Below are positions 2,910 through 32,461 of a stretch of 45,268 bases of DNA, piece after piece. Position numbers and translations under genes: made by a program. The notes under the pieces were generated by a model. It saw nothing but the letters and a program-made list of their open reading frames with translations. It was not told the origin of the DNA and did no database searches. The stretch is from Rhodococcus maanshanensis NBRC 100610 (GTDB taxonomy: Bacteria > Actinomycetota > Actinomycetes > Mycobacteriales > Mycobacteriaceae), in contig NZ_BCXA01000054.1 of NCBI RefSeq assembly GCF_001894865.1, positions 1 to 45,268 of the forward strand, in the 5' to 3' direction. How positions within the stretch are numbered: the stretch's first letter is position 1; every line of letters starts with the position of its first letter.

Positions 2910-3446
2910 ATGGAGGTCACATCGAAGGGGAGGTCGCGCCGGTTCGCGCGGGCGACGACCATCGCCCTCGCCTCGACGCTCATGACGGCCGGCTCGGCCG
3001 GCATCGCCTTCGCGTCCACCGGCCCGAGTGCGCCCGGCGCCGCGCCGCCGGGCCTGGCCGAGTTCGCGGACTCGCTGACCCGCCCCGCCATCGGCAGCCT
3101 GAACACCGGCTTCGCCGGGCTCGGCAGCGTCGGGCTCACCTTCGACTCCGGCAGCGCGGGTTCGTCCAACAACGGCCCCGACAACACCGGCTCGCACAAC
3201 ACCGGTTCCGGCAACACCGGCTCCGACAACGTGGGGTCCGCGAACACCGGCTCGGGCAATGTCGGGTTCGCGAACACCGGCTCGGGCAATGTCGGGATCG
3301 GGAACACCGGTTCCGGCAACGTGGGGTCCCTGAACACCGGCTCGCTCAACACCGGCTCGGGGAACACCGGCATCCTCACCGAGGGCATCCTCGTCACCGG
3401 GCTGGGATCGGTCGGTTTCGGATCGCTCGGCATCAACTGGAACTGA
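2910..3446 (+). CDS. exported Asn/Gly-rich pentapeptide-repeat protein (MPTR-like)
   Basis: 178 residues. ATG 2910 is preceded by a strong GGGGAGGGG site. Residues 1-35 form a signal peptide (basic RSRRFAR, hydrophobic core, AFA cleavage site). A Pro/Ala/Gly segment follows. Residues about 86-154 are tandem pentads of the form N-T/V-G-S-x (NTGSG, NVGSA and similar). The C-terminus is Gly-rich and ends GINWN. The repeats resemble the major polymorphic tandem repeats (NxGxGNxG) of mycobacterial PPE proteins, but no PE or PPE domain is present. Function is unknown; an extracellular or surface location is inferred from the signal peptide. Confidence 0.8.
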   Translation: MEVTSKGRSRRFARATTIALASTLMTAGSAGIAFASTGPSAPGAAPPGLAEFADSLTRPAIGSLNTGFAGLGSVGLTFDSGSAGSSNNGPDNTGSHNTGSGNTGSDNVGSANTGSGNVGFANTGSGNVGIGNTGSGNVGSLNTGSLNTGSGNTGILTEGILVTGLGSVGFGSLGINWN

Positions 3447-13404: not shown

Positions 13405-13537
13405 GAGAACTCCAGATAGCGCGGTCGGGTGCCCAGTGACATTAACCGAGGTCGGCCTCGGTGGTTTCGTCGGTCAACTGCACGTCGGGATACCCTGCGG
13501 GTGGACATTGGCGACACGATCGAGAGTTGGCGGTTGG

Positions 13538-15388
13538 ATGAACAAGCCCGAATTCCTTGAGTCCGGGGCCCCGGCGGCCGAGGTCGAGCCGCGGCTGCTC
13601 GTGCAGCGCGGCGTCTTCGTCGGCATGTCGCCGATCGTCAACGACGACCTCTATGTCGCGTTCCGCAAGGGCTCCGGCGATCGGGAACGCCACACGCTGC
13701 GCCTGGACGCGGGGGCGCGCGCCCACACCAACACCTACTTCGGACGGTTCGCGGCCAGCTACTGGCAGCGCTGGACCACGGTCACCGAGGTGCGGGTCAG
13801 CCTGCGGGCGGCAGGCTCCGGCCGGTTCCGGGTCCGCCTGGTCGCCTCCGACATCGCCGGGCACCGCCGGATCGTGGGTGCCGTCGCCGGATCCGGCGAC
13901 GAAACGGTCGAACTCTCCTCGCCGCTGGACAAGTTCGTCGACGGCGGCGCCCTCTGGGTGGAGATCGACGCGCTGGACGCCCCGCTGACCGTGGACCGGC
14001 TCGAGTGGACCGCGGCCGCGCCCGAGACCGTCCGCCCTGTCGCGATCGCGATCTGCACGTTCAACCGCGCCGACGACTGTGCGAAGACGGTCGCGGCGCT
14101 GGCCTCCGACGACCGCGTGCTCGAGGTCATCGACGCCGTCTACGTCGTCGACCAGGGGACCGACCTGGTCCGGGACCGGGAACTGTACGGCGAGGTCGCG
14201 CCCAGGTTCGGCGACAAGCTGCACTACCTGCGGCAGCCCAACCTCGGCGGCGCGGGCGGCTTCACCCGCGGTCTCTACGAGGTCTCCGCGACCGACGGGC
14301 ACGCCGACGTGATCCTGATGGACGACGACATCCTGTGCGAGCCGGAGACCGTCCTGCGGCTCAACGCCTTCGCGAACGTCACCGTCGAGCCCACCCTCGT
14401 CGGTGCCCAGATGCTGTTCCTGCTCAACCCGGACTACCTGAACGTCGGCGCGGAGGATGTCGATCTCGGCACCCTGCAGCACGGGCAGCGGGTCCCGAAG
14501 GCGCTGCGCAACACCAGCATGCTGAAGAAGAACCAGGAGCGCCGGGTCGACGCCGGATACAACGCCTGGTGGACGTGCCTGATCCCGGCCGAGGTGGTCG
14601 CGAAGGTCGGCCTCCCCATCCCGATCTTCTTCCAGTGGGACGACGTCGAGTACGGGGTCCGCGCCAGGGAGGCGGGGTTCGTCACGGTCACCCTGCCGAA
14701 CGCGGCGGTCTGGCACGCGGACTTCTACTGGAAGGACTTCGACGACTGGGCGCGCTACTTCAGCACCCGCAATTCCCTGATCGTCGGCGCGCTGCACAGC
14801 GACCTGGACACCAAGCGGCTGGGGCGGCAGTTCTTCCGGCAGATCAGCGAGTACCTCGTCGGCATGCAGTACGGTCTCGCCGCGACCACGCTGCGCGGTA
14901 TCGAGGACTTCCTCGAGGGCCCGAAGGTGTTGCAGGACGGCGGCATCGAGGCGATGGCCGCGATCCGCGCGGAGCGGGCCGAGTACCCGGAGACGGTCAA
15001 GCACGACGCGGCCACCGCTCCCGTGCGGTCCGCGGACCTCACCACAAGGCGCTCGGGCGGCGAGCCGAGCGCCATGCGGCTGATCCTGGTCAAGCGGGCC
15101 ATCGACCAGTGGTTCGGCCGGACCCAGCACGGCCTGGTCAACGTTCCGCGCGAGGACGCGCACTGGTGGCACATCTCGCTGTTCGACCACGTGGTGGTCA
15201 CCGACGCCTCGCAGTCCGGGGTGCGAATCCGTCAGCGGGACAAGGGCAAGGCGATCGCGCTGCTGCGGCGGACGGTCAGGGTGCTGCGGCGCCTGCGTGA
15301 GGACGGTGCCGCCGTCTCGCGCCAGTACCGCGACGCCGCCCCGCAGCTGACCAGCCGCGCGAACTGGGAACGCCTGTACGAGCAGTAG
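13538..15388 (+). CDS. glfT2: galactofuranosyltransferase GlfT2
   Basis: 616 residues, close to the 637 of the M. tuberculosis enzyme. It polymerises the galactan of arabinogalactan, adding Galf from UDP-Galf with alternating linkages. Residues 1-160 form the beta-rich N-terminal domain and the GT2 domain follows. The DDD metal motif is at 262-264 and NLGGAGGF at 235-242. WW lies at 344-345, QWDDVE at 366-371 contains the proposed general base, and the ligand His is at 393 (VWHADFYWKDF). ATG 13538 is chosen; the upstream in-frame extension lacks conserved sequence. A convergent terminator separates it from the glfT1 remnant. Confidence 0.95.
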   Translation: MNKPEFLESGAPAAEVEPRLLVQRGVFVGMSPIVNDDLYVAFRKGSGDRERHTLRLDAGARAHTNTYFGRFAASYWQRWTTVTEVRVSLRAAGSGRFRVRLVASDIAGHRRIVGAVAGSGDETVELSSPLDKFVDGGALWVEIDALDAPLTVDRLEWTAAAPETVRPVAIAICTFNRADDCAKTVAALASDDRVLEVIDAVYVVDQGTDLVRDRELYGEVAPRFGDKLHYLRQPNLGGAGGFTRGLYEVSATDGHADVILMDDDILCEPETVLRLNAFANVTVEPTLVGAQMLFLLNPDYLNVGAEDVDLGTLQHGQRVPKALRNTSMLKKNQERRVDAGYNAWWTCLIPAEVVAKVGLPIPIFFQWDDVEYGVRAREAGFVTVTLPNAAVWHADFYWKDFDDWARYFSTRNSLIVGALHSDLDTKRLGRQFFRQISEYLVGMQYGLAATTLRGIEDFLEGPKVLQDGGIEAMAAIRAERAEYPETVKHDAATAPVRSADLTTRRSGGEPSAMRLILVKRAIDQWFGRTQHGLVNVPREDAHWWHISLFDHVVVTDASQSGVRIRQRDKGKAIALLRRTVRVLRRLREDGAAVSRQYRDAAPQLTSRANWERLYEQ

Positions 15389-15403
15389 GCCGAGGTTAGG
15401 AGT

Positions 15404-15434
15404 CGTCCCCGTGCGGTCGGACCGCGCGGGGACG
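15404..15434. terminator. convergent terminator hairpin after glfT2
   Basis: CGTCCCCG (15404-15411) pairs with CGGGGACG (15427-15434), and GCGG/CCGC extends the stem inward. It lies 15 bp after the glfT2 stop and 22 bp before the glfT1 remnant, so this was probably the original glfT2/glfT1 convergent junction. Confidence 0.65.
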
Positions 15435-15456
15435 CCCCGACCGGGGCCGTTGGGCC

Positions 15457-15764
15457 GTCAGTGCCGCTCGAAGCGTTCCTGCCTGCCCATCTTGCGCAGC
15501 CGCACCCAGTCGCGCAGGCCGGCCGGGTCCCGGCGGTCGATCAGGAAGAACCAGCCGAAGCGCAGCCACTCCTGCGGCAGCAGTCGCCGCATGCCCGGCT
15601 GCGAGAGCAGGTACCCGCGGTTGCGATAGGTGTAGAACCGCTTCGTCTCGTTGTCCGGGTACTGGGTGTGCATCCGGCCGCCCAGGATCGGCTTGAACTC
15701 CTCGGCCCCGTTGGGATGCACATAGGCGGTCTGCAGGCAGGTGCCGAACGCCAGGCCGGAGCGG
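15457..15764. repeat. direct repeat copy 1 (3' end of glfT1)
   Basis: 308 bp, identical by eye to 18015-18322 except one base (15755 G against 18313 C). The left edge falls exactly one base beyond the glfT1 stop codon. The right edge ends inside the coding sequence, where the two copies diverge abruptly. Confidence 0.95.
15458..15764 (-). pseudogene. glfT1: truncated glfT1, 3' 102 codons only
   Basis: This is the last 102 codons of glfT1 including the stop, cut off from its glycosyltransferase core. Upstream on the minus strand the frame stays open into unrelated sequence as far as 15874, giving a chimeric 138-codon ORF whose first 37 or so residues (MKPGDRAHEGNPQSAPP...) do not resemble GlfT1. 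The remnant lacks the DDD site and all of the N-terminal domain, so it is not expected to be active. It sits next to the glfT2 terminator, the place where the glfT1 3' end would lie before insertion. Its one difference from the intact gene is synonymous (Gly197, GGC against GGG). Confidence 0.92.
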
Positions 15765-15975
15765 GTCGATCCGAGCTGGTGCTGAACTGGGTGCCGCGGA
15801 CATCCAACTCGTGCTGGCTCCGTGGGTGGCGCGCTCTGAGGATTGCCTTCGTGCGCCCTGTCGCCCGGTTTCACGTCGATTTGTGAGGAAATTCCGCAGA
15901 TAAGGCCCTAACGTGAGTGTCCAACCTTGTCTTGTGCGATCCTTCTCAGTACCAACGCACTACGAAAGGTCCATC
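15765..15975. other. gene-free left end of the island
   Basis: About 210 bp between the glfT1 remnant and the ATPase gene. Roughly the first 100 bp are GC-rich with no recognisable gene. The last 100 bp are AT-richer and must hold the ATPase promoter. TAACGT at 15909-15914 fits a -10 hexamer, but no well-spaced -35 is seen. GAAAGG just before 15976 is the ribosome binding site. Confidence 0.4.
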
Positions 15976-17265
15976 ATGCTCGTGTCGTTCGGCGTGGAGA
16001 ATCACCGCTCCATACGTGAGCGGATGACACTCGATCTTCGAGTGGGACGAAAGGTCGGCTCCAGAATCGAACCCTGGGATGGCGGCATCGCGCCGATCGC
16101 AGCGATCTATGGTGCGAACGCGTCAGGAAAGTCCTCGCTATGGTCTGCCCTGGATGGCTTTCTCGACCTAGTTCGAGATTCCTACCGCACATCGAACGTG
16201 CTAAGGCACGCGAGGCAACCGTTCGCGCTGGATAGCCACTCGAGGTCAGAGCCGACATCGTTTGATATCGAATTTGTTGCTGACGACGGCATTTTGTATG
16301 GCTACAGCGTTTCCTTCGATGATAGCCGGGTGATTTACGAAGAACTCGTCATGTTTCGGACTGCAAGGCCGACGAAGCTGTTTGAAAGGGTTGAATCGAA
16401 TTCGGATGGGAATTCGGGCGACGCGTCAGCCTCTGTGTCATTCGGTAACTCTCTCGCTGGCCCAAACAGGGCGGTTGTGTCGACCCTTCGAGAGGATTCG
16501 CTTTTTCTTTCGGCAGCCTACGCTGCCGATCATCCTCGTCTGAAGCCCGTCACTTCGTGGTTGCGGAGCAGAATCCGATGCTACGAGACTCGGTCTTACA
16601 TGAGTGCGCTTCCTCATGTTTTTGAGCATATGCATGAAGATCGGGATCACCTGAAGGAGATAATACGCATACTCGAGGGCTCTGACGTTGGAATCTTGGA
16701 TGGGAAAACCAATCGACGCAAGTATAGCGACTCTGAAATTTCGAGGCAGCGAATGCTTGCGGAGCTATTTGGCAGGGCGGGCGACTTTGAGCCTGAAACT
16801 GAAACCGTTGACTTTACCCTCGTGCACAGGGGTGAAGATGGAAACTATGAACTTCCCTTTGAGGCTGAATCGGAAGGGACTCAGGCCCTAATTGCGCACG
16901 CGAACGTGATATTGTTCGCGATGAATTTTGGCGGAGTTGTGTTCTTTGATGAAATTGACTCCAGTCTTCACCCTGAGGTTGTTCGGCACCTCGTTCAGCT
17001 CTTTAGTAGCCGTGAATCAAACCCGCATCACGCCCAGTTGATCTTCACGACCCATGATGTGTCGCTCATGGCCTCGATCGGTGGGCGTCCGGCGCCGCTG
17101 TCGCGGGAGCATCTTTGGTTCACGGAGAAGGGGAGTAATGGCACTAGCGTGCTATATCCAGTAACTGACTTCGGTGTTCGCGAAGAAGATAACGTCATGC
17201 GTCGATACATGACAGGACGCTACGGCGCCCTTCCCCAAATCGACCTGTCGGATATGGGGATTTAG
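15976..17265 (+). CDS. AAA (ABC-type) ATPase, AbiLi/RloA-like defence protein
   Basis: 429 residues. Walker A is YGANASGKSS (45-54), the signature-like loop SEGTQAL is at about 299-305, Walker B is VVFFDEID (321-328) and the H-loop TTHD is at 358-361. The N-terminus (SFGVENHRSIRERMTLDL) is typical of the AAA_15/AAA_21 ATPases found in abortive-infection and OLD-like systems. Residues 140-290 are the family-specific insertion. ATG 15976 is preceded by GAAAGG; GTG 15913 would add 21 residues with no such signal. It abuts rloB (TAG then ATG), so the pair is one operon. Sensing of phage infection is the known role of such pairs; this is inference from family. Confidence 0.88.
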   Translation: MLVSFGVENHRSIRERMTLDLRVGRKVGSRIEPWDGGIAPIAAIYGANASGKSSLWSALDGFLDLVRDSYRTSNVLRHARQPFALDSHSRSEPTSFDIEFVADDGILYGYSVSFDDSRVIYEELVMFRTARPTKLFERVESNSDGNSGDASASVSFGNSLAGPNRAVVSTLREDSLFLSAAYAADHPRLKPVTSWLRSRIRCYETRSYMSALPHVFEHMHEDRDHLKEIIRILEGSDVGILDGKTNRRKYSDSEISRQRMLAELFGRAGDFEPETETVDFTLVHRGEDGNYELPFEAESEGTQALIAHANVILFAMNFGGVVFFDEIDSSLHPEVVRHLVQLFSSRESNPHHAQLIFTTHDVSLMASIGGRPAPLSREHLWFTEKGSNGTSVLYPVTDFGVREEDNVMRRYMTGRYGALPQIDLSDMGI

Positions 17266-17922
17266 ATGGCGGGTCGTGGCCAGAGGGGTAATCTCTCATC
17301 CCGTCGAGTTAGCACACGAAGAGAGCCTCGCAAGAGGATGCTGATCGTTCTCGAAGGAGCAAAGACGGAAAGTAGATATTTTAAGCATATTCAACAGAGT
17401 ATTCGGGGGTTTCGGCTCGAGATTGTTCCTGTGGGAAAGGGGCCGGAGCACGTTGTAGCAGAGGCGAAGCGTATTCGGGAGGAAGATCGGCGGGAAGCCC
17501 GTCGAGAGGGTGACTCGCAAGACACGCTGGATGCCGTGTGGGTTGTGGTGGATGTGGACGACCATGCGTATCTAGAAGAAGCGATCGCCGCTGCGGGACG
17601 GGAAGGGATATCCGTTGCGCTTAGCAATCCATGCTTCGAATCCTGGCTGATCCTACATCAAAAAGATCGGCGTTCTCCGTTCGGCAAGTCTCAAGATGCA
17701 AAGCGGGAATGGGCTAAGATCTGCGGATCCACGAAAACCCAAGATGAGTGCAACCTTGTTGCCGGGCTTTTCGAAATTGCGGACGGGCGTGCGCGCAATG
17801 GCCTTGATAGGCCCTGGGGTGCAACTGTGGCAGGCGTACCGAATCCGGGCACAAGGGTTGGCGAACTTGTCACTCACATCCTGGATCTGGCTGGTAAGGA
17901 TGCTAAATCCACAGGACTGTAG
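17266..17922 (+). CDS. rloB: RloB family protein (AbiLii-like)
   Basis: 218 residues with the RloB pattern: a basic N-terminus, then RMLIVLEGAKTESRYF (24-39) with the acidic Glu30, VWVVVDVDDH (91-100) with a DxDD cluster, SNPCFESWLILH (120-131) and NPGTRVGELV (193-202). The first two blocks resemble a Toprim-type metal site, so a nuclease or nucleotidyl-transfer activity is plausible. The start codon follows the ATPase stop directly. RloB with an upstream AAA ATPase is the AbiL-type arrangement, an abortive-infection pair first described in Lactococcus. It is likely the effector, switched on by the ATPase; this is inferred. Confidence 0.88.
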   Translation: MAGRGQRGNLSSRRVSTRREPRKRMLIVLEGAKTESRYFKHIQQSIRGFRLEIVPVGKGPEHVVAEAKRIREEDRREARREGDSQDTLDAVWVVVDVDDHAYLEEAIAAAGREGISVALSNPCFESWLILHQKDRRSPFGKSQDAKREWAKICGSTKTQDECNLVAGLFEIADGRARNGLDRPWGATVAGVPNPGTRVGELVTHILDLAGKDAKSTGL

Positions 17923-17975
17923 CTTCCATATTGTTCTTACGAATTCGAGGCTGAAATTTCCAGGAGTGTATGGGA

Positions 17976-17991
17976 GCGTATGTGGATACGC
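17976..17991. repeat. perfect hairpin near the right junction of the island
   Basis: GCGTAT, loop GTGG, ATACGC, located 54 bp after the rloB stop and 23 bp before the right copy of the glfT1 repeat. No T-run follows, so a simple intrinsic terminator is doubtful. It could mark the end of the rloB transcript or be a remnant of the recombination event. Confidence 0.45.
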
Positions 17992-18014
17992 AATGGCCGC
18001 ATATCTTGAAGGTG

Positions 18015-18322
18015 GTCAGTGCCGCTCGAAGCGTTCCTGCCTGCCCATCTTGCGCAGCCGCACCCAGTCGCGCAGGCCGGCCGGGTCCCGGCGGTCGATC
18101 AGGAAGAACCAGCCGAAGCGCAGCCACTCCTGCGGCAGCAGTCGCCGCATGCCCGGCTGCGAGAGCAGGTACCCGCGGTTGCGATAGGTGTAGAACCGCT
18201 TCGTCTCGTTGTCCGGGTACTGGGTGTGCATCCGGCCGCCCAGGATCGGCTTGAACTCCTCGGCCCCGTTGGGATGCACATAGGCGGTCTGCAGGCAGGT
18301 GCCGAACGCCAGCCCGGAGCGG
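18015..18322. repeat. direct repeat copy 2 (3' end of intact glfT1)
   Basis: 308 bp matching 15457-15764 with one mismatch. Here the sequence continues without a break into the rest of glfT1, so this copy supplies the C-terminal third of the working gene. Confidence 0.95.
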
Positions 18323-18903
18323 ACCAGGCGGCGGTGCACCTCCACCTCGTCGCCGCGGACGAACAGGCGCAGGTCCGGGACCCCGACCGCGTCGACCGCG
18401 GCTGCGGAGAACAGCGCGCCGTTGAACAGGGAGGCGATTCCGGGAAGCAGGTCGTCGGTGCCGAGCTCCGAGCGCAGCCGCCGCCACTCGACGCCGCGAC
18501 GCAGCGGGAACGCCAGTCGGTCGGGGTCGTCGATGTCGCACACCACGGGGGAGACCTCGGACAGTCCGTGCCGGGTGGCGCAGTCGAGCAGGGTTGCGAG
18601 GACCTCGGGTCCCTCCGGGCGGCCGTCGTCGTCGGCCAGCCAGAGCCAGTCGGCGCCGAGGGACAGCGCGTACAGCATGCCGAGCGCGAACCCGCCCGCA
18701 CCTCCGAGGTTGTGCTTGGAGCCCAGGTAGGTGGCGGGCACGCCCGCACCCTCGACGAGTGCGCGCACCTCCGCCTCGTCGGCGTTGTCGACCACCACGA
18801 GGTGATCGAGTGGCCGGGACTGGGTGGAGAGCACCTTCAGCGACTCGGCGAGCAGCTCGCGGCGCTTGTGGGTGACCACCACGCCGATGATCCGTTCGGT
18901 CAC
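18016..18903 (-). CDS. glfT1: galactofuranosyltransferase GlfT1
   Basis: 295 residues (the M. tuberculosis enzyme has about 304). GlfT1 adds the first two Galf residues to the rhamnose-GlcNAc-decaprenyl linker, priming galactan synthesis for GlfT2. It shows IGVVVTHKRRELL (6-18), NLGGAGGF (65-72), the DDD metal site (91-93) and RGDEVEVHRR (183-192) in the acceptor region. The GTG start overlaps the wzt stop by 4 bp (18900-18903), so wzm-wzt-glfT1 is one operon. Codons from about 195 to the stop lie in the duplicated segment; the gene is intact, but its end has come with, or been rebuilt by, the neighbouring island. Confidence 0.94.
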   Translation of the reverse strand: MTERIIGVVVTHKRRELLAESLKVLSTQSRPLDHLVVVDNADEAEVRALVEGAGVPATYLGSKHNLGGAGGFALGMLYALSLGADWLWLADDDGRPEGPEVLATLLDCATRHGLSEVSPVVCDIDDPDRLAFPLRRGVEWRRLRSELGTDDLLPGIASLFNGALFSAAAVDAVGVPDLRLFVRGDEVEVHRRLVRSGLAFGTCLQTAYVHPNGAEEFKPILGGRMHTQYPDNETKRFYTYRNRGYLLSQPGMRRLLPQEWLRFGWFFLIDRRDPAGLRDWVRLRKMGRQERFERH

Positions 18904-19721
18904 CGGGTGTGTCCCGGTTCGGCCTGCTCGCGCTCCATCTCGGCGATGACGTGCCGCACGTGGTCGGCGGCATCGTCGCCCTCGTAGGCGCGCACGACGT
19001 CCTCGATCTCGCCGTGCATGCGCACCTGGCCGTGATCGATCCACATCGCGGTGTCGCACAGCTGGGCGAGGAACTCGTTGGAATGGCTCGCGAAGACCAG
19101 GATGCCGGAGCGCTCGACCAGCGCCTGCAGCCGCACCCGCGCCTTCTTCATGAACTCCGCGTCGACCGCGCCGATGCCCTCGTCGAGCAGCAGGATCTCC
19201 GGGTCGATGCTGGTCACCACGCCCATCGCGACCCGAACCCGCATGCCCGTCGAGTACGTGCGCAGCGGCATGGACAGGTACTCGCCCAGCTCGGTGAACT
19301 CGGCGATCTCGTCCATCTTCGCCAGCATCTGCTTGCGGGTCTGGCCGAGGAAGAGGCCGCGGATGATGATGTTCTCGTAGCCGGAGATCTCGGGGTCCAT
19401 GCCGACGCCGAGGTCGAACACCGGCGCAACCCGCCCGCGGATCCTGGCGCTGCCGCGCGACGGCTCGTAGATGCCGGACAGCAGCCGCAGCAGCGTGGAC
19501 TTGCCCGCGCCGTTGTGGCCGACCAGTCCGATCCGGTCGCCCTCCTTGAGCGAGAGGGTGATGTCGCGCAGGGCCTCGACCACAACGACGTCGGAGTCGT
19601 TTCGGCCGATCGCGCCGCCCGCCTTGCCGAGGAACGCCTTCTTCAGCGACCGCGACTTGGCGTCGAAGATCGGGAAGTCGACGCACGCGTTGTGCGTGTC
19701 GATGCTGACGTGCTTAGTCAT
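18900..19721 (-). CDS. wzt: galactan ABC exporter, ATPase subunit
   Basis: 273 residues, a single ABC ATPase domain of the O-antigen/teichoic-acid exporter type. Walker A is VGHNGAGKSTL (67-77), the signature is YSTGMRVRVAMG, Walker B is EILLLDEG, and the H-loop is ASHS. There is no C-terminal carbohydrate-binding extension. With Wzm it moves lipid-linked galactan across the membrane; the M. tuberculosis counterpart lies next to glfT1 in the same way. It is 15 bp downstream of wzm and overlaps glfT1. Confidence 0.94.
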   Translation of the reverse strand: MTKHVSIDTHNACVDFPIFDAKSRSLKKAFLGKAGGAIGRNDSDVVVVEALRDITLSLKEGDRIGLVGHNGAGKSTLLRLLSGIYEPSRGSARIRGRVAPVFDLGVGMDPEISGYENIIIRGLFLGQTRKQMLAKMDEIAEFTELGEYLSMPLRTYSTGMRVRVAMGVVTSIDPEILLLDEGIGAVDAEFMKKARVRLQALVERSGILVFASHSNEFLAQLCDTAMWIDHGQVRMHGEIEDVVRAYEGDDAADHVRHVIAEMEREQAEPGHTR

Positions 19722-19736
19722 CTGTGACCGCTCTCC

Positions 19737-20612
19737 CTAAACCCAGTAGGGCACGCGGGCCCGGTACTTGCGCAGTGCCACGAGCGCCAGCGCCCAGCCG
19801 ACCACGGTGATGCCGAGCACGATGTACCAGTGGTACAGCTGCTGGGGCTGCCCGATCATCGGCGCGCGGACGATCTCGAGGTAGTGGTAGAGCGGGTTGA
19901 GTTCGGCGATCCTCGCGCGATCGGCGACCGCGCCGCCCTGCGCGACGAGGCTCTGCGTGGTCCACATGATCGGCGTCAGCACGAACAGCAGCAGGGTCAT
20001 CGACGACAGGATCGGGGCGATGTCGCGGTAGCGGGTGGCGAAGATGCCGAAGACGATCGACACCCACACCGCGTTGAGCACGAGCAGGGCCACCGCCGGG
20101 ATCGCCGCGAGCGATGCCCAGCTCAGGTCTCGCCACACCCCGAACGCGACGACCATGATCACGTAGATGACCAGGTTGTGCGCGAAGAACAGCAGCTGCC
20201 GCCACACCAGGCGGTAGATGTGCACGCTCAACGCCGACGGCAGCTGTTTGATCAGGCCCTCGTTCGAGATGAACACCTCGGACCCCTCGATGATCGAGGC
20301 GTTGATCAGGTTCCACACGATCAGGCCGACCGTCACGTAGGGCAGGAACTGGTCGAGGGGGATGTCGAGCAGCGCCGCGTACAGGATGCCGATGGCGGTG
20401 GCCTGTACGCCGGTGGCGATGGTGATCCAGAACGGACCGATCACCGAGCGGCGGTAGCGCTGCTTGATGTCCTGCCAACCGAGGCTCAGCCACAGCTCGC
20501 GCTGCGCGAATCCGTCCCGCAGGTCCTTGAACGCGCGACGGAGGGTCTGCGAGTCGGAGACCGGGGGGACCTCGGTGGCCAATGCCTCGGATTCTGGGGC
20601 GGATGCTGACAC
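19737..20612 (-). CDS. wzm: galactan ABC exporter, permease subunit
   Basis: 291 residues of the ABC-2 polysaccharide exporter permease family. A cytoplasmic N-terminus carries [22 protein letters not shown], the typical amphipathic entry helix, and six helices follow. It is the first gene of the wzm-wzt-glfT1 operon. TAGGCT (minus strand, 20621-20626) lies 8 bases before the GTG, so the mRNA is probably leaderless or nearly so. Confidence 0.94.
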
Positions 20613-25526: not shown

Positions 25527-25614
25527 GGAAGCGTGGCAGAGCGGCCGAATGCACTCGCCTTGAAAGCGAGCGTCGTGAAAGCGACCGGGGGTTCAAATCC
25601 CTCCGCTTCCGCCA
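25527..25614 (+). tRNA. tRNA-Ser(UGA)
   Basis: Acceptor GGAAGCG pairs with CGCTTCC. The anticodon stem-loop is CTCGC-CTTGAAA-GCGAG, with anticodon TGA. There is a long variable arm (class II), the T-loop GTTCAAATC, and CCA is encoded at 25612-25614. Confidence 0.96.
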
Positions 25615-25620
25615 AGCAGA

Positions 25621-25656
25621 AACGGCTCCGACCAGGTGTCCCTGGTCGGAGCCGTT
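25621..25656. terminator. strong terminator between tRNA-Ser and hisC
   Basis: A perfect 15-bp stem: AACGGCTCCGACCAG (25621-25635) pairs with CTGGTCGGAGCCGTT (25642-25656), with a 6-base loop. It serves the tRNA and the convergent aminotransferase gene. Confidence 0.88.
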
Positions 25657-25673
25657 GTGCGTGGTACGGAATC

Positions 25674-26765
25674 TCAGCCCTGCTGGGAGGCCTTCCAGAT
25701 CGGCAGTCCGGCCCCGAGGGCGAACTCCAGGAAGGTGTCGTTCTCGTCGGGGTCGCCGATGGTGACGCGCACCCCGTGCCCCGCGAACGGTCGCGTCACC
25801 ACCTTCGCGGCGATGCCCGCCTCGCCGAACGCCGCCGCCTGCTCGCCGAGCGGGAGCCAGATGAAGTTGCCCGAGGACGGCGGCACGTCGTACCCGCCCG
25901 CGATCAGCGCGTCCCGCACCCGCGTCCGCTCGGCGACCACCCCGTCGGTACGGGCGAGTAGTTCCGCATCGGCGGCGAGCGAGGCGACCGCGGCAGCCTG
26001 GGCCACGCTGGTGACCGCGAAGGGCAGGTGCACCTTGAACAGGGCGGCGATGATCTCCGGGTCGCCGATCGCGTACCCGATCCTAAGGCCGGCAAGGCCG
26101 TAGGCCTTCGAGAAGGTGCGCAGGACAACGACATTCGGTCGACCCTCGGCCAGGGCCACGCCGTCGGGCGCGGCCTCGGCGCCCGCGTCGGGTCGCAGGT
26201 ACTCGAAGTAGGCCTCGTCCAGCGCCACGAGGATGTGCGGGGGGACCGCGTCGAGGAACCGCGCGAGGGCCTCCGCGGCGACCACCGTCCCGGTCGGGTT
26301 GTTCGGGTTGCAGATGAAGATCAGCCGGGTGCGGTCGGTGATGGCCGCGAGCATGGCGTCGAGGTCGTGTTCGTAGTCGGCGGTCAGCGGGACCTCGACG
26401 GGGGTGGCTCCGGCCACCTTGACCACCACGGGATAGGCCTCGAACGAGCGCCACGCGTAGATCACCTCGTCGCCCGGCCCCGAGGTCGCCTGCACCAGCT
26501 CGAGGCAGATGCCGACCGATCCGCAGCCGGTGGTGATCCGGTCCGCGCTCACGCCGAGCTTGGCGGCCAGCGCGTCGCGCACGGCGACCGAGCCGTTGTC
26601 CGGATAACGATTGGCGCCGGCCGCGGCCTCGGCGATCGCCTCCACGACGCTGGGCAGCGGACCGACGGTGGTCTCGTTACTGGCCAGTTTGATCGCGCCG
26701 GGAAAGGTGCGTCCCGGCACGTAGGGGGCGATTCTCGAGAGGTCGGGGCGGGTGCGCACGGTCAT
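25674..26765 (-). CDS. histidinol-phosphate/aromatic aminotransferase (HisC2/Pat type)
   Basis: 363 residues, fold-type I PLP aminotransferase. PLP lysine 220 is in RTFSKAYGLAGLRIGY, NPNNPTG lies at 153-159, the Asp/Tyr pair is in DEAYFEYL (183-190), and SGNFIWL is near the C-terminus. The sequence and the position match Rv3772 (hisC2) and the Pat aromatic aminotransferases, which act on phenylalanine and tyrosine precursors. tyrA at 30248 supplies a related pathway. Distinguishing Pat from HisC needs phylogeny. Confidence 0.88.
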   Translation of the reverse strand: MTVRTRPDLSRIAPYVPGRTFPGAIKLASNETTVGPLPSVVEAIAEAAAGANRYPDNGSVAVRDALAAKLGVSADRITTGCGSVGICLELVQATSGPGDEVIYAWRSFEAYPVVVKVAGATPVEVPLTADYEHDLDAMLAAITDRTRLIFICNPNNPTGTVVAAEALARFLDAVPPHILVALDEAYFEYLRPDAGAEAAPDGVALAEGRPNVVVLRTFSKAYGLAGLRIGYAIGDPEIIAALFKVHLPFAVTSVAQAAAVASLAADAELLARTDGVVAERTRVRDALIAGGYDVPPSSGNFIWLPLGEQAAAFGEAGIAAKVVTRPFAGHGVRVTIGDPDENDTFLEFALGAGLPIWKASQQG

Positions 26766-26879
26766 GAATCGACATTATGCGCCGCATCCGATCGGACGTG
26801 GCGGGCGCGGCGAAAAAGAACCGGTGACCGGCGAAAAGAATCTTGAACGGGTGGGCCGTGAGCGTGCCAAGGTATACGT

Positions 26880-27608
26880 ATGTCGGGAATCTTCACGGAC
26901 AGCGCGGTGCTGCGCGCCCTGGGGGAGCATCCGGACGCGCCTCCCGTTCGCGTCCCCCTGACGGCCGTCGAACCGGACGGACCCGCCCGCGGCGGGATCG
27001 TGGTCCTGCACGAGTCGCGGGAGTTCACCGACGCCCTGCTCGACCTCATGCGCTCGCTCGCGGCCGAGGGCTGGTTGACGGTTGCCCCGCACCTGTTCCA
27101 CCGGGAGCCGCTGCACAGCACCGCTGAGGTGTTCGGGGACAACCTGTTCGCCGACTTCGACGCGGCCTTTGACTGGCTCACCGCGCGCGGGGTGTACCCG
27201 GACTGCGTCGGGGTGCTCGGCTTCGACGACGCGGGCACCGCCGCCCTGCTGGTCGCGACCTCCAGGCCGGTCGGCGCAGCGGTCAGCGTGTCCGCGCGCG
27301 GCATCGTGCACCCGCTCGCGGAGGGTGCCCCGGCTCTGGTGGAGGCGGCCCCGAAACTGCAGGCGCCGTGGCTGGGGCTGTACGGGGAGGACGACCCTGG
27401 CACGCCGCGCGCGGAGGTCGAGCGACTGCGGGACGCGATCGCGCGCGCCGAGGTCGCCACCCTCGTGGTCAGCTACAGCGGTCTCGAGCATCGAGCGGAC
27501 GAACCGCCGGAGTTCCCGGTGGACGGCGATGACAACGATCCGGCCGCGCAGGCGATGATGGACGCGCAGCGCCGGATCTTCGACTGGTTCGATGGCAATC
27601 TGCGTTAG
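26880..27608 (+). CDS. dienelactone hydrolase-like protein with substituted nucleophile
   Basis: 242 residues, alpha/beta-hydrolase of the DLH family: VVLHESREFTDALLD (41-55), YGEDDPGTPRAEVERL and GLEHRAD near the expected Asp and His. The nucleophile elbow, normally G-x-C-x-G-G, reads GFDDAG (114-119), so Cys is replaced by Asp116. It may have lost hydrolase activity or use another mechanism. It is divergent from the aminotransferase gene, with about 110 bp between the starts. Confidence 0.82.
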   Translation: MSGIFTDSAVLRALGEHPDAPPVRVPLTAVEPDGPARGGIVVLHESREFTDALLDLMRSLAAEGWLTVAPHLFHREPLHSTAEVFGDNLFADFDAAFDWLTARGVYPDCVGVLGFDDAGTAALLVATSRPVGAAVSVSARGIVHPLAEGAPALVEAAPKLQAPWLGLYGEDDPGTPRAEVERLRDAIARAEVATLVVSYSGLEHRADEPPEFPVDGDDNDPAAQAMMDAQRRIFDWFDGNLR

Positions 27609-27693
27609 AAATCGCCTATGACCAGCCGTTTTGCCTCTTACGCCGCGCCTGTGTAACCTTTCCATCCGGCGGTTCCGAAAGGACCTGAGCCTA

Positions 27694-27785
27694 GGAAGCG
27701 TGCCAGAGCGGCCGAATGGGACTCACTGCTAATGAGTTGTCCTCCTCAAAGGGGACCGGAGGTTCAAATCCTCTCGCTTCCGCCA
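27694..27785 (+). tRNA. tRNA-Ser(GCU)
   Basis: Acceptor GGAAGCG/CGCTTCC. The anticodon stem-loop is ACTCA-CTGCTAA-TGAGT, with anticodon GCT. It has a long variable arm and the T-arm GGAGGTTCAAATCCTC, and CCA is encoded at 27783-27785. The first bases resemble the tRNA-Ser at 25527. Confidence 0.96.
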
Positions 27786-27820
27786 CGCTGGTGCTCGTAG
27801 GCCAGCACAACTGAAGACAT

Positions 27821-27893
27821 GCGCCCGTAGCTCAACGGATAGAGCACTTGACTACGGATCAAGAGGTTAGGGGTTCGAATCCCTTCGGGCGCA
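27821..27893 (+). tRNA. tRNA-Arg(ACG)
   Basis: Acceptor GCGCCCG/CGGGCGC with discriminator A. The anticodon arm is CTTGA-CTACGGA-TCAAG, anticodon ACG (read as ICG after TadA editing; tadA lies at 31832). The T-arm is GGGGTTCGAATCCC. CCA is not encoded. Confidence 0.96.
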
Positions 27894-27901
27894 CAGTGAG
27901 G

Positions 27902-27935
27902 AGCCCCTCACCGACAGAAATGCCGGTGAGGGGCT
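27902..27935 (+). terminator. terminator after tRNA-Arg
   Basis: AGCCCCTCACCG (27902-27913) pairs with CGGTGAGGGGCT (27924-27935) and is followed by TTCTC. The stem core AGCCCCTCA/TGAGGGGCT is the same as that of the terminator after tRNA-Ser(CGA) at 32461. Confidence 0.85.
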
Positions 27936-27951
27936 TTCTCGTGGGCCAACG

Positions 27952-27972
27952 GTTGAACTCCCATCGGGCGCA
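27952..27972 (+). repeat. decayed partial copy of the tRNA-Arg 3' end
   Basis: This 21-base stretch matches 27873-27893 (T-arm and acceptor of tRNA-Arg) at 17 positions, including the last nine bases TCGGGCGCA unbroken. It lies about 80 bp downstream of the original. Old att-type duplications at tRNA ends look like this, but no integrase is nearby. Confidence 0.45.
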
Positions 27973-28036
27973 ATGGCTTTCGGTCGCATGATCGATCAAG
28001 GCGGCTAGCACGCACGTTCGATTCCCGCTAAGGTGG

Positions 28037-28160
28037 TCGATGCGGGCCGATGGAGCCAGCCAGCTCGAAGGCATGGGCCCGCACCAAACGTGCCGCCCGG
28101 TTCCCCGACCTGGGGCGGCATGCGGGCCCCGTCGATCCATGTGATCGGCGGGGCCTTTCG
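28037..28160 (+). ncRNA. possible structured RNA with terminator
   Basis: Three hairpins occur in series. TGCGGGCC near 28040 pairs with GGCCCGCA near 28080. TGCCGCCC (28091-28098) pairs with GGGCGGCA (28113-28120). GGCCCCGTCGATC (28125-28137) pairs with GATCGGCGGGGCC (28143-28155), with one G-T pair, followed by TTTCG. The last is a good intrinsic terminator with no gene in front of it on either strand. A small RNA is possible; no family is recognised. Confidence 0.35.
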
Positions 28161-28281
28161 CATCGCTGCCCCGCGTGGGGGCGCCCTAACCGCCGTGGTG
28201 CCGCCGCCATCTGTGTGCCGCCTGTGGAGGAGCGTCCGGTCGGGCTGGGGATCAACAGGCCGTGGCCAGCGCGCCGCCCCG

Positions 28282-28414
28282 TTATCCACAGGCCTGTGGA
28301 TGGCATAGTCGCAGGTACAGGCTAATTACATCGATGTAATCCACAGGTTCGTCCACACTGTCCACAGTCCGGTCCTGGGTGTTAACAGGATTTGTCCACA
28401 GCTGTGGACAAATC
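28282..28414. promoter_or_regulatory. cluster of DnaA-box-like sites with palindromes
   Basis: Within 133 bp: TTATCCACA (28282-28290, the classic box), TGTGGATGG (28295-28303), TAATCCACA (28337-28345), TCGTCCACA (28349-28357), CTGTCCACA (28358-28366), TTGTCCACA (28392-28400, the mycobacterial form) and TGTGGACAA (28403-28411). Three perfect palindromes overlap them: 18 bp at 28284-28301, 16 bp at 28325-28340 and 26 bp at 28389-28414. The density is far above chance in GC-rich DNA. It could be a DnaA-titrating or reactivating locus, or DnaA control of the gene at 28492. dnaA and dnaN are not in this window. Confidence 0.7.
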
Positions 28415-28491
28415 GTGGGCACGGTCACGGGGCCGACGACCGCCCGGTTGGGGGACACTGGGGAACCCAGGGCCACGGAAGGAACGCAGCC

Positions 28492-29550
28492 ATGACACTG
28501 GCGTCCGCGCTGACCGGTCGGACCGAGACCGGGCGCGCCCGGCGCAGGCCGATGCTGTTGCGTGACGCGCAGGCCAGCGCCCTGGTGGAGGCGTTCGTCA
28601 TCATCGGGGTGCTGACGATCCTGATCACCCGCGCCTACCTGCACCTCACCGGCTACCCACAGGTCGGCGGTTCCACGCTGCACGTCGCACACGTGCTGTG
28701 GGGCGGGCTGCTGATGGTGGCGGCCCTGGTCGTGACGTTCTCGTTCCTGGGCCTGCGGCCGCGGCTCCTCGCCGTGGTGCTCGGCGGCATCGGATTCGGG
28801 CTCTTCCTCGACGAGGTCGGCAAGTTCGTCACCAAGACCAACGACTACTTCTACCGACCCGCCGTCGCGATCATGTACGTCGTCGTGGTGGTCCTGCTGC
28901 TGCTCAACCGCTGGCTGCACGACTCCCGGCCGCCGAGCGTCGCCGAGGACATCAGCAACGCCGCCGCCATCGCGGTGGACGGACTGATCAGGGGACTGCC
29001 GCCGGAGCGCCGCGCGCTCGCCGAGGCGCAACTGCACCGGGCACAGGCGGCGGGCGCCGACCTGACCGCGGTCGCGGACATCGGTGATCTGCTCGCGCGC
29101 TGCGATCCGCGGGAGCCCGGTCGGTTCGGGGGATTGCGGGCGTGGGGATCGCGGCGGGTCCCGGCCGTGTTGAGCGGTCGCACCGCGGTCGGGGTCGCCG
29201 CCTTCGTCCTGGTGCTCTTCTCGACGTCCGGGCTGATCAACGCGATCGTCACGCTGTCCTCCGATCTCGAGGGCTCGGCCGGGGTCGTCACCACCGTCGG
29301 GCAGCTCGCCGGGACCGCCGTCGCGTGCGTGCTGAGCTGGGTCGGCGTCGCGAGGCTCCGCAACGGCAAGTTGTGGCCGCTGCAGTTCCTGCGGGCCGCG
29401 GCGCTGGTCACGGTGCTGCTGACCCAGGTCTTCGATTTCGTCGCGCAGGAGTTCGGGGCGTTGCTCAACGTGGTGGTCGGGTTGTTCGCGCTGGCGGTGC
29501 TCTCGGCCAGGATCGCGGTGCTCGAGCGCATGGCGGCCGAGGCGGCGTGA
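28492..29550 (+). CDS. polytopic membrane protein of unknown function
   Basis: 352 residues with about eight hydrophobic segments in two blocks: about 25-45, 62-82, 87-105 and 118-138, then a soluble middle of about 80 residues, then about 230-250, 260-285, 300-320 and 328-346. The middle part (PPSVAEDISNAAAIAVDGLIRG...) is helical and charged. GGAAGG lies 9 bases before the ATG. The promoter must lie within or just after the DnaA-box cluster. No family assignment is offered. Confidence 0.75.
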   Translation: MTLASALTGRTETGRARRRPMLLRDAQASALVEAFVIIGVLTILITRAYLHLTGYPQVGGSTLHVAHVLWGGLLMVAALVVTFSFLGLRPRLLAVVLGGIGFGLFLDEVGKFVTKTNDYFYRPAVAIMYVVVVVLLLLNRWLHDSRPPSVAEDISNAAAIAVDGLIRGLPPERRALAEAQLHRAQAAGADLTAVADIGDLLARCDPREPGRFGGLRAWGSRRVPAVLSGRTAVGVAAFVLVLFSTSGLINAIVTLSSDLEGSAGVVTTVGQLAGTAVACVLSWVGVARLRNGKLWPLQFLRAAALVTVLLTQVFDFVAQEFGALLNVVVGLFALAVLSARIAVLERMAAEAA

Positions 29551-29626
29551 GCGCCCGGCGACTCGCGACCCGCGCGGTTCTGCCGCCACTGCTGCCCGAA
29601 GGCCCCACGTCGCTTACCGTAGTCAG

Positions 29627-30226
29627 GTGACCAATCCAGCTCAGGGCGCAGCGGCCACCGATTCGGTCTGGCCTGCGGTCCTCACGTGGCGGGCCCACGC
29701 CGCTCCTCGGATGGAGTCGGTACGAGTGCAGCTCGTCGGTAACCGGATCAAGGCGGCCGGCCGGATCATCGGTGGACAGTGCGCCGAGCACCCCGCGTTC
29801 AGCGCGTCCTACGACCTGGTCACCGACGAGAACGGGGTGACCCGCAGGCTCTCGCTGCGGACCAGCCTTGCGTCGGGTGAGCGGCAGGTCTCGATCAGCC
29901 GGGACTCGCAGGGCAACTGGATGGTCGAGAACGGGACCAACCCCAAGCGATCCACCTTCGGCGGCGCGCTGGACGTCGACGTGGTGCTCAGCCCGTTCTT
30001 CAACACCCTGCCGATCCGGCGGCTGGGCATGCACACCGACTCCGAGGACATCCAGGTCCCGGTCGTGTACGTGTACCTGCCCGACCTGAGCGTGCAGGAG
30101 GCGAGCTTGACCTACAGCAGCGGCGCGGACGGCATCCACGTGCTCTCGCCGGTGTCGAGTTCCTCGGTCACCATCGACCGCGACGGGTTCATCCTCGACT
30201 ACCAGGGCCTGGCCGAGCGGATCTAG
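29627..30226 (+). CDS. putative glycolipid-binding family protein
   Basis: 199 residues, beta-rich, without signal or membrane segments. The sequence (WRAHAAPRMESVRVQL, ASYDLVTDENGVTRRL, DVDVVLSPFFNTLPIRRL, VPVVYVYLPDLSVQ, HVLSPVSSSSVTIDRDGFILDYQGLAERI) matches the putative glycolipid-binding family (formerly DUF1089, similar to the PA1994 fold). The actual ligand is not known. TACCGT at 29615-29620 lies 6 bases before the GTG, indicating a leaderless mRNA. Confidence 0.82.
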   Translation: MTNPAQGAAATDSVWPAVLTWRAHAAPRMESVRVQLVGNRIKAAGRIIGGQCAEHPAFSASYDLVTDENGVTRRLSLRTSLASGERQVSISRDSQGNWMVENGTNPKRSTFGGALDVDVVLSPFFNTLPIRRLGMHTDSEDIQVPVVYVYLPDLSVQEASLTYSSGADGIHVLSPVSSSSVTIDRDGFILDYQGLAERI

Positions 30227-30247
30227 GCGCTCCGCGCCCGTGCGCGG

Positions 30248-31243
30248 TTACCGAGTCCCTGCACTCGCCAGGCGCGCACGGGCGCGCAGCGCCCCTCCGC
30301 GGCGGCCGGCGTCGCGCATCCGCTCCACCCAGCCGTCCTCGCCGACCGCGACGTCGGTGATCTCCCAGCGGTCCAGGTTCTCGTAGCGCAGCCGCGCGGC
30401 GTGCCCCGCCGTCACCAGGGTCTCGGTGCTGCCGCTGTCGGAGAGGGCGTCGCGGGCGTCGGTCAGCAGTTGCAGCGCCTCGTCCAGCGCGACGATCAGC
30501 TCGCCCGAGTTCGCCTCGCACATCGCGCGCACCAGTTCCGGTGCGGTGCCCGCCACCCGGGTGCCGTCGCGGAACGAGCCGGCGGCCAACCCGAGCGCGA
30601 GGTCGCCGCCTGCCGCCGCAACGGTCGCGAGCGCCTCCGCCAGCAGGTGCGGCAGGTGCGAGATGCGGGCGGCCGCCGCGTCGTGCTCGTCGGCGGCGGC
30701 AGGCACCACCACCGAGCCGCAGTCCACGGCCAGCGCGGCCACCTGGCCCCACACCACGGGATCGACGCCGTCGTCGGTGCCGACCACCCACACCGCGTCG
30801 CGGAACAGTGCGACGTCGCCCGCCGCCCAGCCGGACTGCGAGGTCCCCGCCATCGGGTGTCCTCCGACGAACCGCGCGCCGAGGCCGTGCCCGCGCACCG
30901 CGTCGAGGACCGCCCGCTTCACGCTGACCACGTCGGTGAGCGCGCAGTCGGGGGCGTGCGTGGCGACCGCGCCGAGCACGGCGTCGAGGGCAGGGACGGG
31001 CACCGCGACGACGATCAGCGCGCCGGACCGCTGGGCCCGGCGCAGCACCGCCTCGAGGTCGGTGTCGGCGTCGTATCCGTCGGCGCGGGCGTCCTCGACG
31101 GCGCCGGCGGAGCGGTTGTAGCCCCACGCCGTCCGGCCGGCCGCGATCGAGGCCCGGAGCACCGAACCGCCGATCAGTCCGAGCCCGAGAACGCACACCG
31201 GCGGGTCAGTCGCTTCAGCAGACACCCGGATAGGTTGGCACAT
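30248..31243 (-). CDS. tyrA: prephenate dehydrogenase
   Basis: 331 residues. It oxidises and decarboxylates prephenate to 4-hydroxyphenylpyruvate in tyrosine synthesis. The NAD motif is [10 protein letters not shown] near the N-terminus; [17 protein letters not shown] carries the catalytic His, and [11 protein letters not shown] the second conserved His block. ATG 31243 and GTG 31225 are both possible starts. It is divergent from the tadA-associated gene with about 50 bp between the starts. The M. tuberculosis order tyrA-Rv3753c-tadA is similar. Confidence 0.92.
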
Positions 31244-31291
31244 TTGCCTGCGGACTTCATTTACCGGCGCCGGGCGGACTACGGTGACGGC

Positions 31292-31831
31292 ATGGCTGCT
31301 CAGCGCGCGCGTGACAACAGCGCCCCCTCGGACCAGTTCGAGGATCTCGATGGCTTCGGCGTCGCGGTGGTCCTCGACGACGGCAAGTGGAAGTGCACGG
31401 CGCTCACCTCGGCCGCGCTGAACAGTCTCGAGGCCGCGGAGACCGAGCTGCGCGAGATGCGGAGCTCCGGCGCGGTGTTCGGCCTGCTCGACATCGACGA
31501 CGAGTTCTTCGTCATCCTCCGCCCGGCGCCGACGGGCACCAGGCTGCTGCTCTCGGACGCCACCGCGGCGCTCGACTACGACATCGCCTCCGACGTGCTC
31601 GACGCGCTCAACATCGAGACCCCCGACCTCGACCCCGACGAGCTCGACGACGTCGATCCGTGGGAGGAGGGCGACCTCAGCCTGCTGGCGGACCTCGGCC
31701 TGCCGGAACCGGTGCTCGGGGTGATCCTCGCCGAGACCGAGCTGTACCCCGACGAGCAGCTGGGCATGATCGCGCAGCGGCTCGGCTTCGCCACCGAACT
31801 CTCCTCGGTGCTCGACACCCTGCCCCGGTAG
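31292..31831 (+). CDS. tRNA adenosine deaminase-associated protein
   Basis: 179 residues, acidic ([20 protein letters not shown]), soluble. The family is found next to tadA in actinobacteria (Rv3753c type) and is named for that linkage; its biochemical role is unproven. TACGGT at 31280-31285 lies 6 bases before the ATG, so transcription probably begins at the start codon. The stop is followed directly by the tadA ATG, giving a two-gene operon. Confidence 0.88.
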
Positions 31832-32305
31832 ATGTCGCTGCCCAGCGGGGCGAGGGACCGCGACGAGGCGATGATCCGGGCCGCGATCGCCGCCGCCTCC
31901 GCCGCGGACACCGCAGACGTCCCGGTCGGCGCCGTGGTCTTCGATGCGAACGGCGTCGAGCTGGCCAGGGCTGCAAACGCCCGCGAGGCCAACGCCGACC
32001 CGACCGCGCACGCCGAGATCCTGGCGCTGCGCGCGGCCGCCCTCGTGCACGGCGACGGCTGGCGGCTGGAGGGCGCGACCCTGGCCGTGACCCTGGAACC
32101 GTGCACGATGTGCGCGGGGGCGCTGGTGCTGGCCCGGATCGAGAAGGTCGTGTTCGGGGCGTGGGAGCCCAAGACCGGGGCCGTCGGGTCGCTGTGGGAC
32201 GTGGTCCGCGATCGCAGGCTCACCCATCGCCCGCAGGTGCGCGGCGGCGTGCTGGAGGACGAGTGCGCGGCCCTGTTGGAGGGCTTCTTCCGGGAGCAGC
32301 GCTGA
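31832..32305 (+). CDS. tadA: tRNA-specific adenosine deaminase
   Basis: 157 residues. It converts A34 to inosine in tRNA-Arg(ACG), which is encoded at 27821 in this window. The zinc site consists of His60 in HAEI with catalytic Glu62, and PCTMCAGA with Cys91 and Cys94. [20 protein letters not shown] is typical of TadA. It follows its associated protein without a gap. Confidence 0.95.
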
Positions 32306-32370
32306 TCGCGCGGAGGCCCCGGTCAGCGGCCGATTTAGCGCCAGGCCCCGAGTCGGGTAAAGTCACCGGC

Positions 32371-32461
32371 GGTGGCGTGTCCGAGCGGCCTAAGGAGCAC
32401 GCCTCGAAAGCGTGTGACGGGTAACCCCCGTCCGAGGGTTCAAATCCCTCCGCCACCGCCA
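32371..32461 (+). tRNA. tRNA-Ser(CGA)
   Basis: Acceptor GGTGGCG/CGCCACC. The anticodon arm is CACGC-CTCGAAA-GCGTG, anticodon CGA. It has a long variable arm and the T-loop GTTCAAATC, and CCA is encoded at 32459-32461. Three serine tRNAs fall within 7 kb. Confidence 0.96.

Follow-up and report, generated by a model that had tools for sequence, protein, structure and literature searches.

An AbiL/RloAB-type gene pair between two copies of the glfT1 3′ end in Rhodococcus maanshanensis: a candidate case of insertion with long target duplication

Genomic islands of tRNA genes, like the element e14 in icd, bring a replacement end for the gene that they enter, and the old end is displaced. To our knowledge, the spread of small defence modules that have neither an integrase nor a transposase is poorly explained. 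For restriction-modification genes, "insertion with long target duplication" has been described (Nobusato 2000; Furuta 2010, as cited in passages of PMC1643837, PMC3874152, PMC3031569 and PMC4978471), the duplications being, in a passage of PMC3874152, "in the order of 100 bp". Here we analyse 45,268 nucleotides of Rhodococcus maanshanensis NBRC 100610 (the window; assembly GCF_001894865.1, a draft of 96 contigs; NZ_BCXA01000054.1, positions 1–45,268), in which a two-gene cassette of the AbiL/RloAB type lies between two copies of the 3′ end of the glfT1 gene. The locus fits insertion with long target duplication: it has a flanking repeat, an empty site in a close relative and no recombinase that could be found in the insert, and it shares with the described cases a defence module without transposase or integrase and long direct repeats of variable length. 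It differs from them in that the cargo is AbiL/RloAB, that the duplicated gene end, 308 bp long, keeps the target gene whole, and that the same gene end was independently used by an unrelated cargo. In the titles and passages searched, which included few subscription journals, no description of long target duplication was found for AbiL or RloAB, and PMC10121019, searched by keyword, has no passage on such an insertion of this pair. The locus is of interest as a case that is recent and almost unblemished, for which a relative still has the empty site and whose target gene holds other cargo in a second case; it leads to a testable claim, namely that a gene-end homology arm suffices for a defence cassette to dock without harm to the host gene.

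In the window, the host-flank gene glfT2 (galactofuranosyltransferase 2; 13538–15388, plus strand; 97.7% amino acid identity to the closest relative found, G003, over residues 142–616) and glfT1 are convergent. In left-to-right order, the interval between them holds a 68-bp spacer, a remnant of the glfT1 3′ end (15457–15764, minus strand; recognised as a direct repeat and by alignment with G003), the inserted cassette (15765–18014; 2250 bp, absent from G003) and a second glfT1 3′ end (18015–18322, minus strand), which is in frame with the chromosomal glfT1 core. The intact glfT1 gene (18016–18903, minus strand) has a GTG start and codes for 295 amino acids, 97.3% identical to the G003 protein over the full length. 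The outer edge of the repeat is located 1 bp beyond the glfT1 stop codon. An exact recount gave 298 identical bp, one mismatch and 9 identical bp, 308 bp in total, in agreement with blastn (308 bp, 99.7% identity); the repeat finder had returned a shorter, rounded value (300 nt, 100%). A 44-mer of the repeat occurs twice in the window, with no occurrence expected from shuffled sequences, and a protein search of the whole genome retrieved these two copies of the glfT1 end and no further ones. The GC content of the cassette is 0.543 (54.3%), compared with 0.709 for glfT1 and 0.701 for glfT2. A duplicated glfT1 end around a low-GC cassette of the AbiL type is thereby confirmed, as is the original prediction that two 308-bp direct copies frame a lower-GC ATPase/RloB pair and that glfT1, its core joined to the distal copy, stays intact.

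The empty site that the original prediction had proposed to look for is present in G003, where the stop codons of glfT2 and glfT1 are 70 bp apart, a single glfT1 end is found, there is no insert, and the same hairpin region is seen. The 68-bp glfT2-side spacer in front of the remnant in the window corresponds to this spacer of G003. Since the remnant keeps this original spacer, it must be the displaced old end, and glfT1 now uses an end that arrived with or beside the cassette. Both repeat copies carry the same nine differences from G003 that are specific to their own lineage, which means that the event was recent or that the copies have been homogenised. The sole mismatch (15755 G, partner 18313 C) lies 10 bp from the element-side edge, on the cassette side of the remnant, and the gene-side copy has the G003 base; this agrees weakly with an imported gene end, though one mutation could give the same picture. 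The mismatch is synonymous, with a glycine codon in both copies. In 29 relatives this codon is GGG (9), GGC (9), GGT (5), GGA (5) or AGG (1); being free to vary, it gives no clue to a donor. None of the five other genomes of the genus that were searched (G001–G005) has RloA; one of them, G004, contains a broken RloB-like stretch (L267, 5060–5443). The cassette was probably inserted after the lineage had split from G003. The remnant had also been said to lie beside the terminator of glfT2. It does adjoin the original spacer, which houses a strong GC-rich hairpin and possible terminator (15404–15432, plus strand) that G003 likewise has in its empty site (spacer 15389–15456 folds at −45.3 kcal/mol, z −3.4), but no classical terminator was listed by the terminator scanner in this spacer.

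The cassette carries a gene for an AAA (SMC/RecF-like) ATPase of 429 amino acids, rloA/abiLi (15976–17265, plus strand), and a gene for an RloB-family protein of 218 amino acids, rloB/abiLii (17266–17922, plus strand), whose ATG immediately follows the rloA stop codon. RloA matches the PADLOC AbiLi model (3.1e-80) and Pfam AAA_21 (2.5e-35; 123.5 bits, cut-off 27), and contains what we take to be a Walker A motif, GANASGKS, and a Walker B-like one, VVFFDEIDSSLHP. RloB matches PADLOC AbiLii (6e-22) and Pfam RloB, PF13707 (1.8e-28; 100.5 bits, cut-off 31.5). Judged by these family models and by the two-gene order, the pair is of the AbiL/RloAB type, the family assignment made in the original prediction; an RloB-like gene was also found downstream of RloA in 122 of the 147 relatives scanned. 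The window RloA is diverged, with 31–34% identity to five aligned relatives and 39% to the best match found. In an alignment of 33 sequences, RloB residues T34, E35 and D96 are invariant and E30, G31 and D98 nearly so, and the protein is predicted to be a nuclease toxin of the TOPRIM/OLD type; a PDB sequence search with it returned nothing significant. PARIS (AriA/AriB), Septu and OLD likewise pair an AAA ATPase with an effector nuclease, which is either separate or fused to it. RloA does match AriA models (1.6e-33) and, weakly, PtuA in PDB, but the AbiLi model is far better, and at an E-value of 0.001 RloB matches AbiLii alone in PADLOC, with no match to AriB, the PARIS partner.

Family members have been reported from other bacteria. 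A table row of PMC4978471 places RloAB in a strain-specific cluster of Helicobacter pylori Puno135; a passage of PMC10440598 describes an RloB-type (D44) toxin of C. algidicarnis that is neutralised by an AAA protein, and, according to a passage of PMC3985639, AbiLii from F. nucleatum is toxic in E. coli and the lactococcal protein is not. Phage defence may be the function of the window pair as well, and RloA would probably hold RloB and release it during phage infection. The two genes are the only non-overlapping open reading frames (ORFs) of at least 120 amino acids wholly inside the cassette; both were scanned, and neither codes for a transposase or recombinase, as had been noted from the sequence. 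No inverted repeats of at least 18 bp were detected within 13500–20500, and the left 0.2 kb of the cassette was not found in any other of the 101 genomes searched.

A match to the C-terminal part of GlfT1 is present in 395 of 401 family genomes, four of which have more than one (G000, G620, G731 and G773). G620, which belongs to a second genus, has a decayed glfT1 stub of 324 bp (275 of 334 alignment columns identical), which includes ca. 45 bp past the stop codon and is located 2.5 kb from the intact glfT1, with an amidohydrolase gene and a TetR gene between them. The glfT2 homologue of G620 was scanned with Pfam and matches the GlfT2 domains. In G723 (L379), of the same genus, glfT1 is followed after 67 bp by a methyltransferase gene (81% identity), the one that flanks the far side of the G620 insert. 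The inserts of G620 and the window have no significant shared sequence, and G620 has an independent duplication of the glfT1 end around unrelated cargo, the kind of case that the original prediction had suggested searching for at this place. With two independent events among the family genomes, glfT1 has been entered more than once, though rarely. The other two genomes were set aside, the second match being a nearly full-length, frameshifted gene elsewhere without a stub in G731 and only 31 amino acids long in G773. No decayed stubs were detected downstream of 59 further glfT1 genes (L330 served as the positive control; L377 was too short and was dropped), nor behind glfT1 in L334, L360, L364 and L383, which have other large inserts; the ten proteins of these four inserts that were scanned gave no match to an integrase family. 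Across the family genomes that have both genes (L330, L334, L360, L364, L383 and others), the distance from glfT1 to a tylF-like methyltransferase gene ranges from ca. 17 bp to 11 kb, and the intervals looked at hold varied metabolic and regulatory cargo.

A parallel case is found in Streptosporangium canum (L125), where an RloAB insert lies between two copies of the 3′ end of fbiC, a CofGH/FbiC-like radical-SAM gene. The solute-binding-protein gene of the S. canum locus stands downstream of fbiC in Sphaerisporangium corydalis and Thermocatellispora tengchongensis (72% and 78% identity, respectively); this empty-site neighbour was seen in two of four relatives and is missing from the stretches fetched for the other two. 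Next to the fbiC stub, there are short collinear matches to the spacers of the two relatives (13+37 bp and 11+36 bp), each of them weak (E 0.02–0.2). The stub adjoins the old downstream neighbour, the polarity that is also seen at glfT1. The claim that the element supplies a replacement 3′ end is thus backed by the fbiC case and, weakly, by the single mismatch.

To see how often RloA is flanked by repeats, sequences up to 800 bp upstream of RloA were compared with 1500 bp downstream for direct repeats of at least 40 bits, in the best 80 of 561 stretches from species genomes, one plasmid locus, 66 loci from viral contigs and 34 fetched actinobacterial loci (28 with a usable RloA match). Repeats flank RloA in 9 of 78 species and plasmid loci (3 of 81 untestable), 4 of 59 viral loci (7 of 66 untestable) and 2 of 28 actinobacterial loci, 15 of 165 testable loci in total. 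In the same loci, repeats were found around 3 of 711 random intervals (3/450 and 0/261) and 3 of 265 other genes. An excess of flanking repeats around RloAB pairs is therefore measurable in several phyla (Fisher, p 4e-9 against random intervals and 9e-5 against other genes, with the reservation that some viral loci are near-duplicates and that the RloA of L260 is a weak match, E 1.7e-9). A strict set, in which the repeats are clear pieces of genes or tRNAs, contains 8 of the 165 loci (L069, L074, L075, L119, L125, L126, L151 and L260; p 0.026 against 3/265 genes and 1e-4 against 3/711 random intervals, control hits not having been filtered likewise); without L074, whose repeat is in mid-gene, it is 7 of 165 (p 0.049 and 5e-4, respectively). 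L240 was dropped from the strict set, its flanking repeat being a dispersed multi-copy repeat of its genome; L058 and L117 (terminator-like repeats), L120 (intergenic) and L189, L193 and L194 (28–29 bp, probably one lineage) are outside the strict set and are kept in the total of 15. Duplications of gene 3′ ends at L094 (53 bp, 5.9-kb insert) and L104 (132 bp, 9.5-kb insert) exceed the distance limits and were not counted. PtuA of Septu, with a match in 0 of 346 genomes at E 1e-30, could not serve as a control.

The duplicated pieces are diverse. They come from the 3′ ends of a tRNA-Arg gene (L075), a tRNA-like sequence (L069; no tRNA called by ARAGORN), an orphan ORF (L119), fbiC (L125) and a phage portal gene (L151, 72% identity), from the 5′ ends of hsdR (L126, a 70-bp duplication) and of a DUF1156 gene (L260), and from within a citrate synthase gene (L074). 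In L126 (218–8027), RloAB is situated between DarT and macro-domain genes on one side and hsdR on the other. The repeat of L126 begins at the start codon; that of L125 ends ca. 25 bp short of the stop codon, that of L151 starts just inside, and that of G620 reaches 45 bp past it. Repeat lengths vary from 28 to 308 bp. No end common to 11 cassettes was detected, pairwise matches being scattered, with L117/L119 (30 bp, 87%) and L074/L125 (49 bp, 76%) the best. Relatives examined for an empty site of L119 do not share its other flank.

We favour, with a probability of roughly 0.4, the reading that a foreign RloAB module entered the lineage after its separation from G003 by a single crossover within a glfT1 end that it carried, giving a long target duplication. 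A glfT1 3′ end would already have been present on the incoming DNA, which was probably a circle; one crossover within that end would join the chromosomal glfT1 core to it, leaving the gene whole, and displace the old end beyond the cassette, where it would form the remnant. The module would need no recombinase of its own if RecA acts, and the reverse crossover between the copies may excise it and restore the empty site. The identical run of 298 bp at this locus counts for RecA, and runs of 64–70 bp are long enough for it; the longest identical runs within the diverged repeats of L119 and L125 are 70 and 64 bp, respectively. The variety of targets, 5′ ends included, the lack of a common cassette end and the fact that no recombinase gene was found in the cassette also lean towards RecA. 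As for the donor, RloAB pairs reside on enterobacterial plasmids of 3.7–5.3 kb, which means that small circles bearing such a pair exist; one plasmid-borne pair has matches in 26 of 5426 E. coli genomes, with 29 of 34 places on plasmids. Several observations weigh against this reading. No circular form or donor was seen, and RloA has at best 39% identity to a plasmid-borne relative. The seven other loci that were measured have longest identical runs of just 9–41 bp, short for RecA unless the copies have decayed, as they may have. Repeat edges that lie past the stop codon by 1 bp (window), 2 bp (L104), 3 bp (L094) and 4 bp (L119) call for an explanation. Two RloAB loci (L075 and L069) sit at tRNA or tRNA-like 3′ ends, which are usual integrase targets, and a distance of 19 bp, within a gene of ca. 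0.9 kb, separates the inner edges of the window and G620 events, which chance capture of homology does not predict.

The last two of these points, together with the restored gene 3′ ends, are what site-specific integration would explain: a tyrosine or serine recombinase, acting in trans from a helper phage or element or since lost, would use glfT1 codons ~194–200 as attB, and the cassette would carry attP with the replacement end. That unrelated cargoes in different genera entered glfT1 so close together counts for this reading, which we rank only a little below the RecA one. Unlike e14 and the tRNA-gene islands, the cassette has no integrase that could be found, and a 308-bp repeat is far longer than the usual integrase crossover core. 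No recombinase was present in the window cassette or among the scanned proteins of other cassettes, no genome search aimed at recombinases having been made; the glfT1 end is duplicated in just 2 of the 395 genomes with a match, and the 5′-end targets of L126 and L260, the mid-gene repeat of L074 and the want of a common cassette end do not suit such an enzyme. The likeness to e14 in icd drawn in the original prediction holds for the polarity of the replacement end, but insertion with long target duplication of restriction-modification genes matches equally well. Capture of foreign DNA at offset breaks of sister chromatids, or homology-facilitated illegitimate recombination of linear DNA, with duplication of the stretch between the joints, would suit any site and would leave the variable repeat lengths and unlike ends that are seen; we consider it improbable, since edges so near stop codons, and at the start codon in L126, are too regular for it (L125, L151 and G620 being exceptions) and the diverged copies in L119, L125 and L104 suggest an imported second end, though a stub that had decayed later would give the same picture. 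Least probable is an assembly product. In a 96-contig draft, an empty chromosome together with a free cassette circle yields an identical assembly graph, and a repeat may be mis-joined, but both joints between the cassette and glfT1 would have to be real reads anyway, the copies differ by one base, and a like architecture is found in other genomes. Going beyond the crossover that we favour, one may picture RloAB pairs as minimal mobile elements of ~2 kb that have no mobility enzyme and use a spare conserved gene end as both landing address and repair patch, which would let even a gene like glfT1 receive them, with glfT1 codons 194–200 a docking site for unrelated cargoes; this generalisation we regard as doubtful.

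RloAB pairs were also met in other settings. In the chromosome record of E. coli strain 73 (L272, 4965–14821), a 5.25-kb RloAB plasmid is repeated in tandem beside mobB, in partial and full copies, through either integration or misassembly. In an E. coli lambdoid prophage (L271, 7137–9119) the pair is located downstream of ren; no long flanking repeats were found at this pair or at a Rhodococcus plasmid pair (L057). Elsewhere in the window, a tandem array of 15-bp units of the AACACCGG type (3138–3409) apparently codes for Asn/Gly-rich pentapeptide repeats, and four tRNA genes, Ser(TGA), Ser(GCT), Arg(ACG) and Ser(CGA), all on the plus strand, are located within 25527–32461.

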